From Halorubrum vacuolatum (GTDB taxonomy: Archaea > Halobacteriota > Halobacteria > Halobacteriales > Haloferacaceae), in assembly GCF_900188065.1 (NCBI RefSeq), contig NZ_FZNQ01000011.1, positions 1-64,000 of the forward strand: a stretch of 64,000 nucleotides of DNA. The letters run 5' to 3'. Shown one piece after another: positions 7,171 through 48,493 of this stretch. The position numbers and the translations under genes were made by a program. Position 1 is the stretch's first letter; the number at the start of each line of letters is the position of its first letter. The notes beneath the pieces were generated by a model. It ran no database searches. It saw nothing but the letters and a program-made list of their open reading frames with translations, and was not told the origin of the DNA.

Positions 7171-7485
7171 TCAGCTGTCAACAGCCGAGACGTTCGAGGC
7201 GACCCAGTCGGCGAACGCTTCGGGTACGTCAGACTCCTTGAATCGCTCGATACACGGGACGTCGTGCGGGTGGAGCTCCTCGATCGCTTCCCGTAGAGCC
7301 GGGTAGGCGTCGGCGGTCGTCTTGATAAGCAGTATCCGCTCCGATTCGCTGTGGACCGCGCCGTCCCAGCGGTAGGTCGACTCGCAGTCAACGACGTTGA
7401 CGCAGGCGGCGAGACGCCGTTCGACGAGGGTTTCGGCGAGTTCGTCGGCGTCCCCCTCCGGAGCGGTGACGTAGACGGTCGTCAC
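7171..7485 (-). CDS. cutA: Divalent-cation tolerance protein CutA
   Basis: 104 residues from the GTG at 7485 (VTTVYVTAP). Family motifs are present: the start strand, RRLAACVNVV, the aromatic SxYRW, and LHPHDVPCI followed by FADWV. CutA forms a trimer with a ferredoxin-like fold and is linked to copper and other divalent-metal tolerance, though its exact biochemistry is unsettled. An open frame extends to 7527 but the extra residues have no family counterpart. The GTG overlaps the stop of the zinc-finger gene upstream as GTGA, so translation is probably coupled. Confidence 0.9.
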   Translation of the reverse strand: MTTVYVTAPEGDADELAETLVERRLAACVNVVDCESTYRWDGAVHSESERILLIKTTADAYPALREAIEELHPHDVPCIERFKESDVPEAFADWVASNVSAVDS

Positions 7486-7655
7486 GGGCGCTCCGTTATC
7501 GGGACGAAGGTCCCGTTGATGTCCCACTCGTGGAGGCAGTAGATTTGGCCGGCGTCCTCATCGATCCGCCACCCTTCAACGGCGTCATCCCATCGTTCGC
7601 TCCGCCCACATCGCTCACAGGTCCGCTCGGTTGGGGGGGTGATACGCACGCCCAT
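7482..7655 (-). CDS. Small HEWDINGT-type zinc-finger protein
   Basis: 57 residues. It contains a CxxC pair (CERCGR) near residue 13 and a second half with Cys-His in YCLHEWDINGTF. The HEWDINGT signature marks a family of small haloarchaeal zinc-finger proteins of unknown function. A strong TATA box 22-33 bases upstream (7677-7688) places the transcription start at or next to the ATG, so the mRNA is leaderless. The stop codon TGA shares bases with the GTG start of cutA, suggesting a two-gene operon and a possible shared metal theme. Confidence 0.85.
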   Translation of the reverse strand: MGVRITPPTERTCERCGRSERWDDAVEGWRIDEDAGQIYCLHEWDINGTFVPITERP

Positions 7656-42566: not shown

Positions 42567-43556
42567 ATGGCAGGGTCCGCGCTCTATTTCACCGCGCCCG
42601 GCTCCGTCGAGACCGAGCCGATCGACGGAGGACCACCCGATCGCGACGAAGTCGCCGTCGAGACGGTCGCCTCCGCCATCAGCGCGGGGACCGAACTCCT
42701 CGTCTATCGGGGGCAGGCACCGACCGAAATCCCTCGGGACAAGACCATCGAGGCGCTTTCCGGCGAGTTCTCCTATCCGATGCGCTACGGCTATGCGGCC
42801 GTTGGTGAGGTACAGGCAGTTGGCGAACACGTCTCGAACGAATGGGCCGGACGGACGGTCTTTTCGTTCACCCCACACCAGACGCGTTTCACCGCGTCGC
42901 CGGACGTGCTGGTTCCGGTGCCACCCGAAATGGACGCCGAGACGGCGACGCTCATCCCCTCCGTTGAGACGGCGACGACGCTGGCACTCGATCTCGGAGC
43001 CCGACTCGGCGAGGAGATCGTCGTCTTCGGGGCCGGCGTGATCGGGCTCTGTCTGGTCCGACTGCTCGCCGCGTTTCCGCTCGATCGCCTCGTCGTCGTC
43101 GATCCGATCGAGCGGCGGCGAACCGTCGCCCGTGAATTAGGTGCGGACGAGACGATCCATCCCGATGACGGTGCGGAGGGCATCGACGGGTTCGATGCCG
43201 CCGTCGAACTCTCCGGCCGTCCCGCCGTGCTCGATGACGCCGTTTCCGCCGTCGGGTACGGCGGTCGGGTTATCGTCGGCTCCTGGTACGGAACGAAACG
43301 GGCACCGATCGATCTGGGCGGCCGGTTCCATCGTGACCGGATAACCATCAGATCCAGTCAAGTGAGCACGATCGCCCCCGAACTCCGGGGTCGGTGGGAC
43401 ACCGAACGGCGGATCTCGACGGTGCTCGACCGATTGGACGGCTCCCTCGCCGAGACGCTGATCAGCCACCGGGTTCCCTTCGAGCGTGCCGAGGAGGCAT
43501 ACGAGCTCCTCGATGGGCGTCCCGAGGAGGCGCTTCAGGTCGTATTGACCTACTGA
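42567..43556 (+). CDS. Zinc-type alcohol dehydrogenase-like MDR oxidoreductase
   Basis: 329 residues, GroES-like domain then Rossmann domain. NAD(P) loop VFGAGVIGLCLVRLL, with VVDP at the end of strand 2 suggesting NAD. The classical catalytic Cys-His zinc ligands of ADH are replaced (SAISAGTELLVYRG, GYAAVGEV), and no structural four-Cys zinc lobe is visible, so it is a zinc-independent or atypical member. It is divergent from cofE with a 135-base gap. Substrate unknown; related proteins in haloarchaea are found with pterin or lipid genes, but none of those lies next to it here. Confidence 0.8.
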   Translation: MAGSALYFTAPGSVETEPIDGGPPDRDEVAVETVASAISAGTELLVYRGQAPTEIPRDKTIEALSGEFSYPMRYGYAAVGEVQAVGEHVSNEWAGRTVFSFTPHQTRFTASPDVLVPVPPEMDAETATLIPSVETATTLALDLGARLGEEIVVFGAGVIGLCLVRLLAAFPLDRLVVVDPIERRRTVARELGADETIHPDDGAEGIDGFDAAVELSGRPAVLDDAVSAVGYGGRVIVGSWYGTKRAPIDLGGRFHRDRITIRSSQVSTIAPELRGRWDTERRISTVLDRLDGSLAETLISHRVPFERAEEAYELLDGRPEEALQVVLTY

Positions 43557-43576: not shown

Positions 43577-45421
43577 TCAGTAACTTCGCACCTTCGGTTC
43601 GTACGTCCGCATCTCACCCCTCAGCAATACCGGCCCGAAGTGAACCGCCGGCCGCCCACCGTTCCACGTGACGTACGTGTGGCGTAACCACTCCTCGTCG
43701 TCGCGCGTCTGATGGTTCAGCCGCCAGTGTGCTCCGCGGAACTCCTCGCGGACGAACGCGCCGATCGTGATCGCCTCGGCGACGTCCAGCATGTTTCGCG
43801 TCTCGATCGTCTGGATGAGATCGGTGTTGAACGTGTGGGATGGATCCGAAACGCCGACCTCCTGATACTGCCGGCGGCATCGTGCGAGCGTCTCCAGCGT
43901 CGATTCGAGCCCGGAGCGCGTCCGGAAGACGTTGACGTGCTCCTCGAAGGCACGTTGAAGCGTCGAGCGGATCACGGCGTGGTTGGTTCCATCGCGTTGC
44001 ATCAGCCGGTCGATCCGACGGCGCTCTCGTTCGACTGCGCGGGAGACGACCGCTGCTGGGGAGTCATCGACCGTGGATTCATCGGCCCGTCCACCGTCCA
44101 TCGCCGTGAGCGGATCGGGCTCCGGATCCCCGATCGGCGCGTCGATCGATCCGCCCCACGTCCGGGTCCTCGCCTCCGCGCCGGTCGGGATCGACGCCGA
44201 AACGGGATCGTCGCTCGCGGCCCGCTCGCCGGCCCGTTTCCCGAAGACGATCAGCTCGGGAAGCGCGTTACCGCCTAGTCGATTCGAGCCGTGGACGGAT
44301 GCACAGGCACACTCGCCGGCGGCGTAGAGTCCCTCGATACTCGTTTGTCCGTACTCGTCCGTCTCGATCCCACCCATCGCGAAGTGCTGTCCGGGTTTAA
44401 CCGGCATCGGCTCCGCGGTCGGATCGACGCCTTCGAAATCCTCAGCGAGGTGGATGATGTTCTCCAACCGGTCGCGGATCCGACCCTCGCCGATGTGTCG
44501 CATGTCGAGATGAACGTGGTCGTCATCGAAGCCGCGCCCGTCCTGAATCTCGAATAGCTCCGCCCGCGAGACGACGTCGCGGGAGGCGAGCTCGCCGGCG
44601 TTGTTCGCGTAGCCGCGTTCGAACATGAACCGCTCGTTCTCACGGTTGTAGAGGACCCCACCCTCGCCGCGGACGCCCTCGGAAATGAGCACGCCCGTGG
44701 AGGGAAGCGTCGTCGGGTGGAACTGCACGAACTCCATGTCCTGTACGGCCGCGCCGGCCCGGTAGGCCATCGCGACGCCATCGCCGGTGTTCGAGACGGC
44801 GTTCGTGGTGTGGTTGTACACCTGTCCGAGCCCGCCGGTGGCGAGGACGACGCCGCCGTCCGCCCGGAAGCCTTCGAGCGAGCCGGTCGCGAGGTCGTAG
44901 GCGACCACCCCGTGACATCGACGGTCGTCCGGGTTCGGCACGTCAGTCACGGCGAGCGAGAGCACGTAATACTCGTCGTAGATCGTGATCCCACGCTTCA
45001 CGACCTGCTGATAGAGCGTGTGAAGGAGGTGATGGCCCGTTTCCGCACCGGCATACGTCGTTCTCGGCGCGGAATGACCCGCGAGATATCGCAGGTCGAT
45101 CTCGCCCGCGTCGTTTCGTGAAAACGACATCCCCCAGCGTTCGAGTTGGATCACCTCTTTGGGGGTCTCCCGACACAACGCCTCGACGGCGGGCGCATCG
45201 GCGAGATAGTCAGCGCCCTTCATCGTGTCGTACGCGTGGGTTTCGGGCGAGTCCCGCTCGTGGAACGCGGCGTTGATCCCTCCCTCAGCGGCACCGGTGT
45301 GCGAGCGGACCGGATGGAGTTTCGAGACGATCGCGACGTCGGCGCCGGCTTCGTGTGCGGCGACCGCCGCGCGCAACCCGGCCCCGCCGCCACCGACCAC
45401 GATGACATCGTGCTCCCTCAT
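43577..45421 (-). CDS. Succinate dehydrogenase/fumarate reductase flavoprotein-like protein, without partner subunits
   Basis: 614 residues. FAD-binding start VIVVGGGGAGLRAAVAAHEAG; the loop with the flavin-linking His is RSHTGAAEGGINA; active-site regions HPTTLPSTGVLISEGVRGEGG and the Arg/His in HGSNRLGGNALPE; C-terminal helical domain. Close to SdhA, which oxidises succinate to fumarate in the membrane. No sdhB, sdhC or sdhD is adjacent, whereas haloarchaeal sdhA normally sits in an sdhCDBA operon. It could be a paralogue such as a fumarate reductase or L-aspartate oxidase-like enzyme. A TATA-like element lies at about 45452-45462. Confidence 0.82.
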   Translation of the reverse strand: MREHDVIVVGGGGAGLRAAVAAHEAGADVAIVSKLHPVRSHTGAAEGGINAAFHERDSPETHAYDTMKGADYLADAPAVEALCRETPKEVIQLERWGMSFSRNDAGEIDLRYLAGHSAPRTTYAGAETGHHLLHTLYQQVVKRGITIYDEYYVLSLAVTDVPNPDDRRCHGVVAYDLATGSLEGFRADGGVVLATGGLGQVYNHTTNAVSNTGDGVAMAYRAGAAVQDMEFVQFHPTTLPSTGVLISEGVRGEGGVLYNRENERFMFERGYANNAGELASRDVVSRAELFEIQDGRGFDDDHVHLDMRHIGEGRIRDRLENIIHLAEDFEGVDPTAEPMPVKPGQHFAMGGIETDEYGQTSIEGLYAAGECACASVHGSNRLGGNALPELIVFGKRAGERAASDDPVSASIPTGAEARTRTWGGSIDAPIGDPEPDPLTAMDGGRADESTVDDSPAAVVSRAVERERRRIDRLMQRDGTNHAVIRSTLQRAFEEHVNVFRTRSGLESTLETLARCRRQYQEVGVSDPSHTFNTDLIQTIETRNMLDVAEAITIGAFVREEFRGAHWRLNHQTRDDEEWLRHTYVTWNGGRPAVHFGPVLLRGEMRTYEPKVRSY

Positions 45422-45516: not shown

Positions 45517-46293
45517 CTATCGGTCGATGTGCGCCGCGTACCGTCGCTTGAACCCCTCGTACGCCGCCGGTTCGATGTCGATACAGCGGAACCGCGCGTC
45601 GTCACCGAAGGTCTGCCGTGCCGCGATCGCCGCCGGCGCGGTGCCCGCACAGGGGATGATCACGAGTTCGCCGGGCTCCACCAGCCCGGAGAGCCACGCC
45701 GCATACGGCTCGACCGGTTTGGCGCGTCCGCCACGGCCGTACGTCTCGGTCGGCCATCGGGCTACCTGTCGGGCCGAGACGGCGGTGCGTCTCTCGGTCG
45801 GGCCCTTGTGGGCGAAGACGACGCTGTATCCGCCGGTTGAGAGAAACGGACCGTGGGTGTCGCGGTCGGGCTGGCCGTCCGCGGTGAGGTACGTGACGCC
45901 ACCGATCCGCCGGAAGCCGCCGCCCTCGTGCTGTTCGGTCGCATCGCCCCACGTCTCTCGGAGGTACGAGACGAATCGAGGGAGGAGCCAGTCGTCGACG
46001 TCGGCGATGAGCCATCCGCCCGGCATGAGCGCCCCATAGCAGGCGTCGATGATCTGGGTCGTCGTCAACGCGTCGGTAACCTGCGGGCCGTCCGCGGGTT
46101 GATCGTCGTCGAACGGATGCAGTTGGTAGCTGACGCTCGTCTGCTCGCGCCGACCGGGTCGTGCCCAGGCGTCGTCGAGGAAGATCGCTGCCGCCTCGTC
46201 GTCATCGTCCGCAAGCGCCGCGAGCGCGTCGCCAACGATGTACTCGCCGCCGGGGCCGACCGTGTGTCGCTCGAACCCATCACCGGTTGTCAT
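45517..46293 (-). CDS. Beta-class methyltransferase-like protein with altered catalytic motif
   Basis: 258 residues from the ATG at 46293. Motif order is that of beta-class DNA amino-methyltransferases: first a motif IV position (AIFLDDAWARP, where DPPY is expected), then a target-recognition region, then motif I near the C-terminus (VIIPCAGTAPAAIAA) followed by RCIDIEPAAYEGFKRRY, like the CIDIDxxY of site-specific methylases. The DDAW in place of DPPY leaves activity and target base open. It is the last of four overlapping genes (ATGA with the gene before). No restriction gene is nearby, so it would be an orphan modification enzyme or a methylase recruited for another substrate. Confidence 0.6.
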   Translation of the reverse strand: MTTGDGFERHTVGPGGEYIVGDALAALADDDDEAAAIFLDDAWARPGRREQTSVSYQLHPFDDDQPADGPQVTDALTTTQIIDACYGALMPGGWLIADVDDWLLPRFVSYLRETWGDATEQHEGGGFRRIGGVTYLTADGQPDRDTHGPFLSTGGYSVVFAHKGPTERRTAVSARQVARWPTETYGRGGRAKPVEPYAAWLSGLVEPGELVIIPCAGTAPAAIAARQTFGDDARFRCIDIEPAAYEGFKRRYAAHIDR

Positions 46294-47135
46294 CGATCGC
46301 CTTTCGGCTCGCCCGCCCCTGAACGTTCCCCATCGTGCACCGTCCAGCCTCCATCGCGCACCGTTCTCCCTCGACGTCCGCGACGGCCCGAAACCCCGAA
46401 ATAATCCCATACGAAGTGTGCGAGGATCGGTCCGGTGACGAGCCAGCCGACCGCCCGCGAGACGGCGGGATCGACCGTCGGAAGCAACCCGAGGGCGATG
46501 GTTCCCATGATCAGCGCGCCCGTCACCTTTCGGTACCGACTCGCTTCGAGGTCATACACCGGCAGCCCACGCCGTCGTCGGAGCGCGACGCCGCCAACGA
46601 ACCCGTAACGGGCGAGTCCGACGAGCAGGAACACGGCGGGTACGAGACCGAGCGCGACCGTCGCGACCGTCCCGACGAGCACGATGAGCGCGTCGACCTC
46701 GGTGTCGAGACGCGCGCCGAGTGCCGTCTCCGTCTCGGTGCGACGGGCGACCGCGCCGTCGACGGCGTCGAGCGTGATCGCCGCGAGGAACAGCCCGAGG
46801 GCGATCCACCCGATCCGTGTGGCGGTGGGTGCGAGCGCGACGACCCCCGTGAACACCACGAGCGCCCAACCCCGACAGAGCGTGATCCACGTGGCTGCGG
46901 TGATACGTCGTTCTCCCGCCCGCGGCGTCGTCGACGCCATCACCCAGCCGATGACGACCGTCAGCGCTGCGAACGAGCCCGCGACACCGCCACCGACCCA
47001 CCCGGTGATGGCCACCGTCTCCATCGTTGCGAGCAACCCCACCGTCCCGCTGACGACCAGCAGACCACAGAGCGTCACCAACGCGTAGGGCCGCCACGGC
47101 GGTGTGCGTCCCGCCGCCCCGACCGTGGCGGTCAT
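46290..47135 (-). CDS. CDP-alcohol phosphatidyltransferase family protein
   Basis: 281 residues from the ATG at 47135, six or more helices. The catalytic signature D-x2-DG-x2-AR-x8-G-x3-D-x3-D is complete at DAVDGAVARR and GARLDTEVDAL. Members join a CDP-activated lipid to an alcohol such as inositol phosphate, glycerol phosphate or serine, in the membrane. An extra helix pair precedes the catalytic domain. Both ends overlap neighbours by ATGA, placing it between a ParB-like gene and a methyltransferase-like gene, which is unusual company. The alcohol acceptor is unknown. Confidence 0.85.
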   Translation of the reverse strand: MTATVGAAGRTPPWRPYALVTLCGLLVVSGTVGLLATMETVAITGWVGGGVAGSFAALTVVIGWVMASTTPRAGERRITAATWITLCRGWALVVFTGVVALAPTATRIGWIALGLFLAAITLDAVDGAVARRTETETALGARLDTEVDALIVLVGTVATVALGLVPAVFLLVGLARYGFVGGVALRRRRGLPVYDLEASRYRKVTGALIMGTIALGLLPTVDPAVSRAVGWLVTGPILAHFVWDYFGVSGRRGRRGRTVRDGGWTVHDGERSGAGEPKGDR

Positions 47136-47944
47136 CGTGTCACCGCTCGCGTGCCGCCGGTGCGTGTCGTCAGCGGAGTGAGGTCCGGATGATCGACGGT
47201 CGCCTTGGTCGCACCCGTTAGCCGACGGCGGTCCCGTTTTGCCTGCCATTGCCGGTGTCGTCGATGGCACAACACGGGGATCGATTCGAGGTCGAGCAGT
47301 TTGGCGATGGCGAGTCGATGTTGACCATACGCCCGCCAGTACAGCGTTCCGTCCCGCCCGATGTCGACGTTTATCTCGTCGGCGCGATCGGCAAGCGTCG
47401 GTCGGTCGCGGCCCGCGAGCGTCTCCTGTCGTCGGTAGCCATCGGTCGAGAGCGACGTATACAGCCGCTCGATCTCTCGGCATCGCGGCTCGAACCCCTC
47501 GATGCTGCGGTAGCCCCAGGCGTTGCCGAATCGCGAGAGCTGCTCACGGAAGGCCGCAAGCAACGCCGTCTCGCGCCACGGCGTCCCCTCCTCGAAGTGT
47601 TCACGGAGCCCGCGGACGACCGCACGGTCGGCGAACCGCTCGGCATGCTGATCCCAGTCGCCGTCGATCACCCGGCCCCACTGGGGTCGTTTCGGCGCGT
47701 GCGGAAGCAGGCTTCCGGTGATCGAGGCGGGGTCCACCTCGATCAGACGGAACGGATGAGCGTCGGTATAGCGCCTTGGCTCAAGCCGTCGTCGCAGTCG
47801 GTGTATCCGTCGACACCACGCGATCGGTATCCGACGGGCCACCGGTTGGGTGAGGCCGTCGCGGACCGCTAGCACGCCGTGAGCTCGAAGGCGTTTCCTA
47901 AGCGGGGGCGACTCGGCCGCCACCAACGGGGGTGACTCACTCAC
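47132..47944 (-). CDS. ParB-like domain protein
   Basis: 270 residues from a GTG at 47944. Basic N-terminal part (RKRLRAHGVLAVRDG, RRIHRLRRRLEPRRY), then a middle WGRVIDGDWDQHAERFADRAVVRGLREHFEEG, and a ParB/sulfiredoxin-like end: NVDIGRDGTLYWRAYGQHRLAIAKLLDLESIPVL, where ParB-like proteins carry a GxHR motif and a loop before IPV. Similar proteins occur in haloarchaeal glycan, sulfotransferase and mobile clusters. DNA binding or a nucleotidase role is possible; neither is shown. Coupled to both neighbours by overlaps of 8 and 4 bases. Confidence 0.6.
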   Translation of the reverse strand: MSESPPLVAAESPPLRKRLRAHGVLAVRDGLTQPVARRIPIAWCRRIHRLRRRLEPRRYTDAHPFRLIEVDPASITGSLLPHAPKRPQWGRVIDGDWDQHAERFADRAVVRGLREHFEEGTPWRETALLAAFREQLSRFGNAWGYRSIEGFEPRCREIERLYTSLSTDGYRRQETLAGRDRPTLADRADEINVDIGRDGTLYWRAYGQHRLAIAKLLDLESIPVLCHRRHRQWQAKRDRRRLTGATKATVDHPDLTPLTTRTGGTRAVTR

Positions 47945-48308
47945 GGCGGAGCAACACGACGAGCGCCACGATCAACCCGATCTGTGCGAGTTTATCGACC
48001 ACTTCTATCGTCTCGATCGTCGCGAGCGTCGGTTCATTAAGCAGGGCCCATAACACGATCTGCCCGGCCGTGAACGGGATCCCGACGAGGTAGACAAGCC
48101 GCCGCCGGACGTCGAACAATACGAGCAACACGCCTCCGATGAACCCGGCAAAGGCGATCAGGAAGCCGATCCCGAAGGGGCTCGTCAACGGCAGGTCTAC
48201 GACCGCGATAATGAGATGGACGGCTGCGCTCACGAGCGCCATCGCGATGGCCCCCCAGTGTAGCGGGGTCAATGAGGCCGTCTCCAAACCGAGGCGGCGA
48301 GCGGACAT
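47937..48308 (-). CDS. Four-helix membrane protein, DUF7475-type
   Basis: 123 residues: LTPLHWGAIAMALVSAAVHLIIAV, FGIGFLIAFAGFIGGVLLVLF, then DVRRRLVYLVGIPFTAGQIVLWALLN and a last helix ending VVLLRRE. This pattern matches a haloarchaeal family of small integral membrane proteins, function unknown. It is the first of the four overlapping genes 48308-45517, with its promoter in the AT-rich bases after 48309. Confidence 0.75.
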   Translation of the reverse strand: MSARRLGLETASLTPLHWGAIAMALVSAAVHLIIAVVDLPLTSPFGIGFLIAFAGFIGGVLLVLFDVRRRLVYLVGIPFTAGQIVLWALLNEPTLATIETIEVVDKLAQIGLIVALVVLLRRE

Positions 48309-48493
48309 GCCGATCCGATGGGACTACGGTTAAAAAGGTGTTTTCCCCGAAAACGGCGAACGTTCCATCGGCCGTGAATCGCTGGATTCAGCATTATGCA
48401 ACATGGTGCTCCGTCGCCGACTCACTGTGGCTCCGCTCCCCAGCAACGTGCCGGCTTCGTCAATTACTACCCGCCGCGGGTGCCACTCACGGT

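Follow-up and report, generated by a model that had tools for sequence, protein, structure and literature searches.

The four overlapping genes described here probably belong, for the most part, to an uncharacterised metabolic pathway rather than to a defence system. They lie in a window of 64,000 nucleotides, the whole stretch of Halorubrum vacuolatum DNA that was analysed. Two of them, encoding a DUF7475 membrane protein (TM) and a CDP-alcohol phosphatidyltransferase (the transferase), are an ancient pair within a larger gene cluster, which occurs in some 60% of the sampled haloarchaea and probably makes a sugar-decorated molecule joined to phosphate or lipid. The other two are a ParB-like gene, an optional third member of the cluster that forms one clade, and a methylase-like gene, a later addition acquired a single time in a Halorubrum-type clade. 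The preliminary description had regarded all four as one set complete in itself, but the old and widespread part consists only of TM and the transferase, with the ParB-like gene in one clade. A search of the accessible literature gave no described function for the set of cluster genes, comprising a PTPS-like enzyme, a GT4 glycosyltransferase, a SAM methyltransferase, the transferase and TM, and it turned up no paper on the HVO_1280-1283 genes, the DUF7475 family or halopterins.

The features of the window that are relevant here are as follows:

42567..43556, + strand: BchC-like zinc-type dehydrogenase of the conserved cluster, with 48-77% identity to cluster dehydrogenases
43577-45421, - strand: succinate dehydrogenase/fumarate reductase flavoprotein gene (sdhA-like), TIGR01812 above cut-off
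45517..46293, - strand: methylase-like gene, ATG start, fourth in transcription order
46290..47135, - strand: CDP-alcohol phosphatidyltransferase, ATG start, third in transcription order
47132..47944, - strand: ParB-like gene, GTG start, second in transcription order
47937..48308, - strand: TM (DUF7475 membrane protein), ATG start, first in transcription order
48330..48336, - strand: TATA-like element TTTTTAA, recognised from the sequence, 22-28 bases upstream of the TM start codon

The junction of TM and the ParB-like gene reads GTGAGTGA, an overlap of 8 bases, and the ParB-like/transferase and transferase/methylase junctions are ATGA each, overlaps of 4 bases, exactly as initially claimed. 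The TM/ParB-like overlap is also seen in relatives, where it measures 4 or 11 bases, and pairwise dN/dS is about 0.13-0.42 across all four genes; it follows that the four genes are real, constrained and coupled. The initial view that they form one translation unit is borne out by overlaps beyond chance and by this recurrence in relatives. In haloarchaeal leaderless transcripts, a TATA element is usually located 22-28 bases before the start codon, and the TTTTTAA element, which fits such a transcript, would be the promoter of the four-gene unit. The proposed gene order is kept in other haloarchaea, completely at two loci (L007 and L010) and from the ParB-like gene onward at another (L009); Halorubrum alkaliphilum DSM 23564 has the complete four-gene unit. 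Genes were called with a simple, composition-based caller, by which some A+T-richer regions were poorly called. The domain guesses of the preliminary description have also stood up: those for the transferase and TM by matches to PF01066 and DUF7475, that for the methylase by its structure and that for the ParB-like protein with weak support for its fold.

TM matches DUF7475 (PF24287) in Pfam with an E-value of 1.1e-10 (42.2 bits, cut-off 31.3), and four helices can be counted from its sequence; a DUF7475 protein is also present in Haloferax volcanii. The transferase matches PF01066 in Pfam (E 5.2e-16; 59.8 bits, cut-off 22). Its catalytic motif, D-xx-DG-xx-AR-x8-G-xxx-D-xxx-D, is complete, and D123, D126, G127, A130, R131, G140, D144 and D148 are invariant in 17 homologues. 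In its PF01066 domain, full DxxDGxxAR...GxxxDxxxD motif and membrane character, it resembles the archaeal-lipid CDP-alcohol phosphatidyltransferases, such as PgsA and the archaetidylinositol phosphate and archaetidylserine synthases. It differs from them in having an additional N-terminal membrane region, in having PTPS, GT4, dehydrogenase and DUF7475 protein genes as neighbours, and in falling below every NCBIfam equivalog cut-off: it scores 37.3 bits for PGP synthase (PgsA; cut-off 109.1) and 28.5 bits for archaetidylinositol phosphate synthase (cut-off 180), which are the nearest models, and 19.2 bits for archaetidylserine synthase (cut-off 240). A profile search of the PDB with the transferase matched cholinephosphotransferase and PgsA (7drj, E 2e-7).

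A conserved run recurs in many genomes, in which TM and the transferase are followed by a BchC-like dehydrogenase, a PTPS-like enzyme, a GT4 glycosyltransferase and a SAM methyltransferase. TM is present in 150 and the transferase in 153 of 242 haloarchaeal genomes, and strong matches to the dehydrogenase are found in about 140 of the 242. Among the matches listed, at least 135 genomes have TM, and the transferase is present in all 135; the two genes are within 1 kb of each other in 76 of these listed genomes and within 5 kb in 99, and the transferase and dehydrogenase, likewise among the matches listed, are at most 5 kb apart in 94 genomes. The PTPS gene was found in 29 of 30 genomes with TM and in 2 of 30 without it (Fisher p 2e-13, only a guide because the 60 genomes, picked from match lists, are non-random and mutually related). 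Strong matches to the SAM methyltransferase in these same genomes gave identical counts (29/30 and 2/30), with two more marginal matches (E about 1e-4) in genomes lacking TM. One genome (G110) has TM and the transferase without the other cluster genes, and two (G004 and G034) have the soluble cluster genes without TM and the transferase, indicating that the cluster has two submodules.

In H. vacuolatum itself the cluster genes are scattered. The dehydrogenase in the window, strong orthologues of which lie near the transferase in other genomes, is divergent from the four-gene unit, and the sdhA-like gene lies in between. No other sdh gene was called alongside this sdhA-like gene, and one is likewise located between the methylase and the dehydrogenase at L009. 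Another locus of this genome (L073; G000:C39:97000-112000) contains the cluster's PTPS gene together with PAP2, FkbM, flippase and small c8 genes, the latter four in the same order as at L007. Between c8 and the following gene, remnants of TM and of the methylase are found at 7276-7397 and 7456-7650 of this locus, with nucleotide identities of 71% over 125 bases and 87% over 154 bases, respectively; the site has neither the ParB-like gene nor the transferase. The SAM methyltransferase of this genome is on a third contig. The remnants are a scar of relocation or decay, and, taken together with the scattering of the cluster genes, they lead us to regard the unit in the window most simply as an intact, relocated piece of a formerly contiguous cluster.

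The ParB-like protein has no family match in Pfam or NCBIfam, its E-value against the ParB family of PHROG is 0.23, and sequence searches of solved structures with it gave no useful match. Its AlphaFold model has a pLDDT of 81; the structure models in this study were built on 5-8 sequences from the window and related loci. In Foldseek searches of the PDB the model matched Srx (E 0.029), ParB (E 0.13) and SbnI (E 0.15) weakly, and also Noc and SerK, with probabilities of 0.85-0.95 over about 70-100 residues and none with E <0.001. Judging from this model, the protein likely has a ParB/Srx-type core. The weak structural match and a GxHRLAxA motif are its likeness to the ParB/sulfiredoxin-fold proteins, which include the free serine kinases SerK and SbnI; it differs from them in the lack of a Pfam ParB match and of parA, and in its occurrence in glycan/lipid loci with many paralogues per genome.

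The cluster-borne ParB-like gene is located between TM and the transferase, or nearby, in about 9 of 242 genomes and at loci from further contigs, a minority that comes from several families of haloarchaea. All 17 cluster-borne sequences fall into one clade, specific to the cluster, with support of 100/99. When presence of the gene is mapped on the transferase tree, 5 changes are required as against 10.2 in shuffles, which suggests an early gain and, on several later occasions, loss or movement of the gene. Members of the wider family occur in 87 of the 242 genomes, often in multiple copies. In H. vacuolatum, five divergent paralogues lie at 7191-13820 of L015 (G000:C39:200000-219000), in the AglB N-glycosylation region, with glycosyltransferases, a flippase and nucleotide-sugar genes as neighbours, and a flippase is found in 14 of 19 other paralogue regions fetched, mostly with sugar epimerases and dehydrogenases. 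The ParB-like family is thus a glycan/lipid-locus family. A role as partition protein is out, given the absence of a ParB profile match and the location of the paralogues in glycan loci, and given that no parA adjoins the gene, whose neighbours are TM, the transferase and pathway genes. No relatives were found in viral contigs. At the paralogue loci L088-L103, a set comprising a ParB-like gene, a Gfo/Idh-like dehydrogenase, an epimerase, a flippase, a small "MWPW" membrane protein and a phosphodiesterase-like gene recurs in many haloarchaea, and this set is perhaps another uncharacterised glycan pathway.

The main rival to the reading that we favour, set out below, is a surface-glycan pathway, in which the cluster would make a glycan, either lipid-linked or decorated with a phosphodiester, for export by the flippase located close to it in several genomes, with the PTPS-like enzyme repurposed. 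GT4, Polysacc_synt flippase, PAP2 phosphatase and FkbM methyltransferase genes near the cluster at some or all of L007, L073, L074 and L078 would fit such a pathway, as would the ParB-like paralogues in loci with AglB and a flippase. However, the flippase, PAP2 and FkbM genes are outside the conserved core in most genomes, and the core PTPS has no known glycan role, so that we consider this reading possible but somewhat unlikely.

What, then, might the PTPS-like enzyme contribute? It matches PF01242 in Pfam with 81 bits (cut-off 22.4) and retains the His-x-His zinc motif, and, where the motif is found, it has Glu at the position of the catalytic Cys of QueD/PTPS (ExxLHSH). This replacement is conserved among the cluster PTPS genes, for example that at L078:8014-8391 on the - strand. 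Charged, glycosylated pterins (phosphohalopterin and sulfohalopterin) were reported from haloarchaea long ago. The Glu-for-Cys replacement in an enzyme with an intact zinc motif, combined with a glycosyltransferase, suggests a pterin conjugate: the cluster would make glycosylated, charged pterins, to which the transferase would add a phosphodiester or lipid anchor. The location of PTPS, GT4, SAM methyltransferase and dehydrogenase in one conserved run is in favour of this, and so is the gene for GTP cyclohydrolase IIa (arfA), which adjoins the cluster in several genomes. Such an arrangement, GTP cyclohydrolase IIa beside PTPS and a dehydrogenase in several genomes, is the likeness to the neighbourhood of haloarchaeal arfA (HVO_1284) and to the COG0720 PTPS family. 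However, ArfA serves riboflavin synthesis, and deletion of arfA causes riboflavin auxotrophy (PMC8305020). The adjacency is perhaps unrelated to the cluster and alone is no proof of a pterin product, and this reading seems doubtful to us.

The methylase has, according to its structure model, the fold of beta-class DNA amino-methyltransferases: in Foldseek it matched CcrM with an E-value of 2.5e-10 (probability 1.00), and also M1.HpyAVI and RsrI. Its likeness to this class, which includes the Adineta vaga N4-cytosine methylase, lies in the fold and in the motif order IV-X-I. Unlike these enzymes, however, it lacks the canonical motif IV (D/S)PP(Y/W/F) and motif I FxGxG, having LDDAW in place of DPPY/SPPY and PCAGTAP in place of FxGxG, both of which are invariant in 13 of 13 aligned homologues. 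It is present in 13 of the 242 haloarchaeal genomes. The transferase-adjacent methylases (window, L007, L009, L010 and L063) form one clade with support of 100/98 in the methylase tree, and the transferases of the matching loci form one clade with support of 99/98 in the transferase tree, which means that the methylase joined once. At L063 the methylase is still beside the transferase, with TM and the ParB-like gene absent from the locus. Other relatives are found in provirus- or plasmid-like regions (L070 and L071) and on an IMG/VR contig (L083), where the gene is next to a C5 methylase; a single-sequence scan of viral contigs gave no match, and it was a profile scan that revealed the viral copy. 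On one viral contig of 80.9 kb the methylase occurs near both ends, and a contig of 53.6 kb has the same stretch (L083, L084 and L085 in IMG/VR); this has the look of a redundant assembly, and the copy comes after a C5-methylase gene. At both proviral loci an unclassified gene (MRLYYTGAS...; L070:9796-10479 and L071:9765-10436) lies immediately upstream of the methylase, and its L070 copy has no match in Pfam or NCBIfam. The methylase is a DNA-methylase-type protein that was captured from a pool of mobile elements and has stayed next to the transferase, where purifying selection acts on it.

Could it have become a working part of the pathway, methylating a non-DNA substrate or the pathway product? 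Each of the five members of its clade has it beside the transferase, even where TM and the ParB-like gene are missing, it is under the strongest purifying selection of the four genes (dN/dS 0.13-0.29), and its motifs IV and I are unlike those of DNA methylases. Nevertheless, its relatives in proviruses and viruses, which do not lie in a cluster of this kind, have the same altered motifs, and we think such a role improbable. As for the initial suggestion of a membrane-tethered DNA-modifying or defence module, it is very unlikely and disfavoured by PADLOC results, neighbourhoods and distribution: apart from the fold of the methylase and its viral relative beside a C5 methylase, which speak for it, the methylase is in the unit in one clade only as a late acquisition with proviral and viral relatives, the ParB-like paralogues lie in glycan loci, PADLOC gave no match for three of the four genes and only a weak MTase_II match (E 0.00098) for the methylase, and the remaining genes of the unit are found together with metabolic ones. 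On the chromosome the unit is surrounded by housekeeping genes, for example pyrB. The other branch of the initial suggestion, modification of a lipid-linked product, finds support here.

We thus return to the reading that we favour, in which TM, the ParB-like protein and the transferase are the membrane module of the cluster, conjugating a glycosylated head group via a phosphodiester, a proposal for which we see the chances as evenly balanced. The soluble enzymes (dehydrogenase, PTPS-like enzyme, GT4 and SAM methyltransferase) would assemble a head group, either a polyol or a pterin-like compound, and add sugar to it. The kinases SerK and SbnI suggest by analogy that the ParB-like protein, where present, might phosphorylate the alcohol or activate it in some other way. 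The transferase would then join the head group via a phosphodiester, most simply to archaeol from CDP-archaeol, or alternatively move a CDP-linked alcohol onto the head group, giving a conjugate with archaeol or a phosphoalcohol, and the DUF7475 protein would assist the transferase in the membrane. In favour of this proposal are gene order, co-occurrence, the invariant transferase motif, the single clade of the ParB-like gene with its paralogues in glycan loci, the one-time addition of the methylase, and the TM and methylase remnants beside cluster genes at L073; the substrate, product and direction of the pathway, as well as the roles of the ParB-like and DUF7475 proteins, are inferred. On the other side, the function of the cluster PTPS-like enzyme may have changed, the fold match of the ParB-like protein is weak, the two submodules occur separately in G110 and in G004 and G034, and the compound on which TM and the transferase work might have nothing to do with the PTPS branch. 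A more specific version is rather a long shot. In it, a dedicated six-gene cluster makes a glycosylated compound of pterin type that is anchored in the membrane or linked by a phosphodiester, and in some haloarchaea a ParB/Srx-fold enzyme, translationally coupled to the CDP-alcohol phosphatidyltransferase, activates its head group with ATP or CTP; if it were true, a fold of chromosome partition would serve in lipid/glycan chemistry.

If the reading of a membrane module is right, haloarchaea would have a new lipid or glycoconjugate pathway. It would provide a functional context for DUF7475, a family of unknown function, and a context for a large ParB-like family whose members are likely mis-named as partition proteins.
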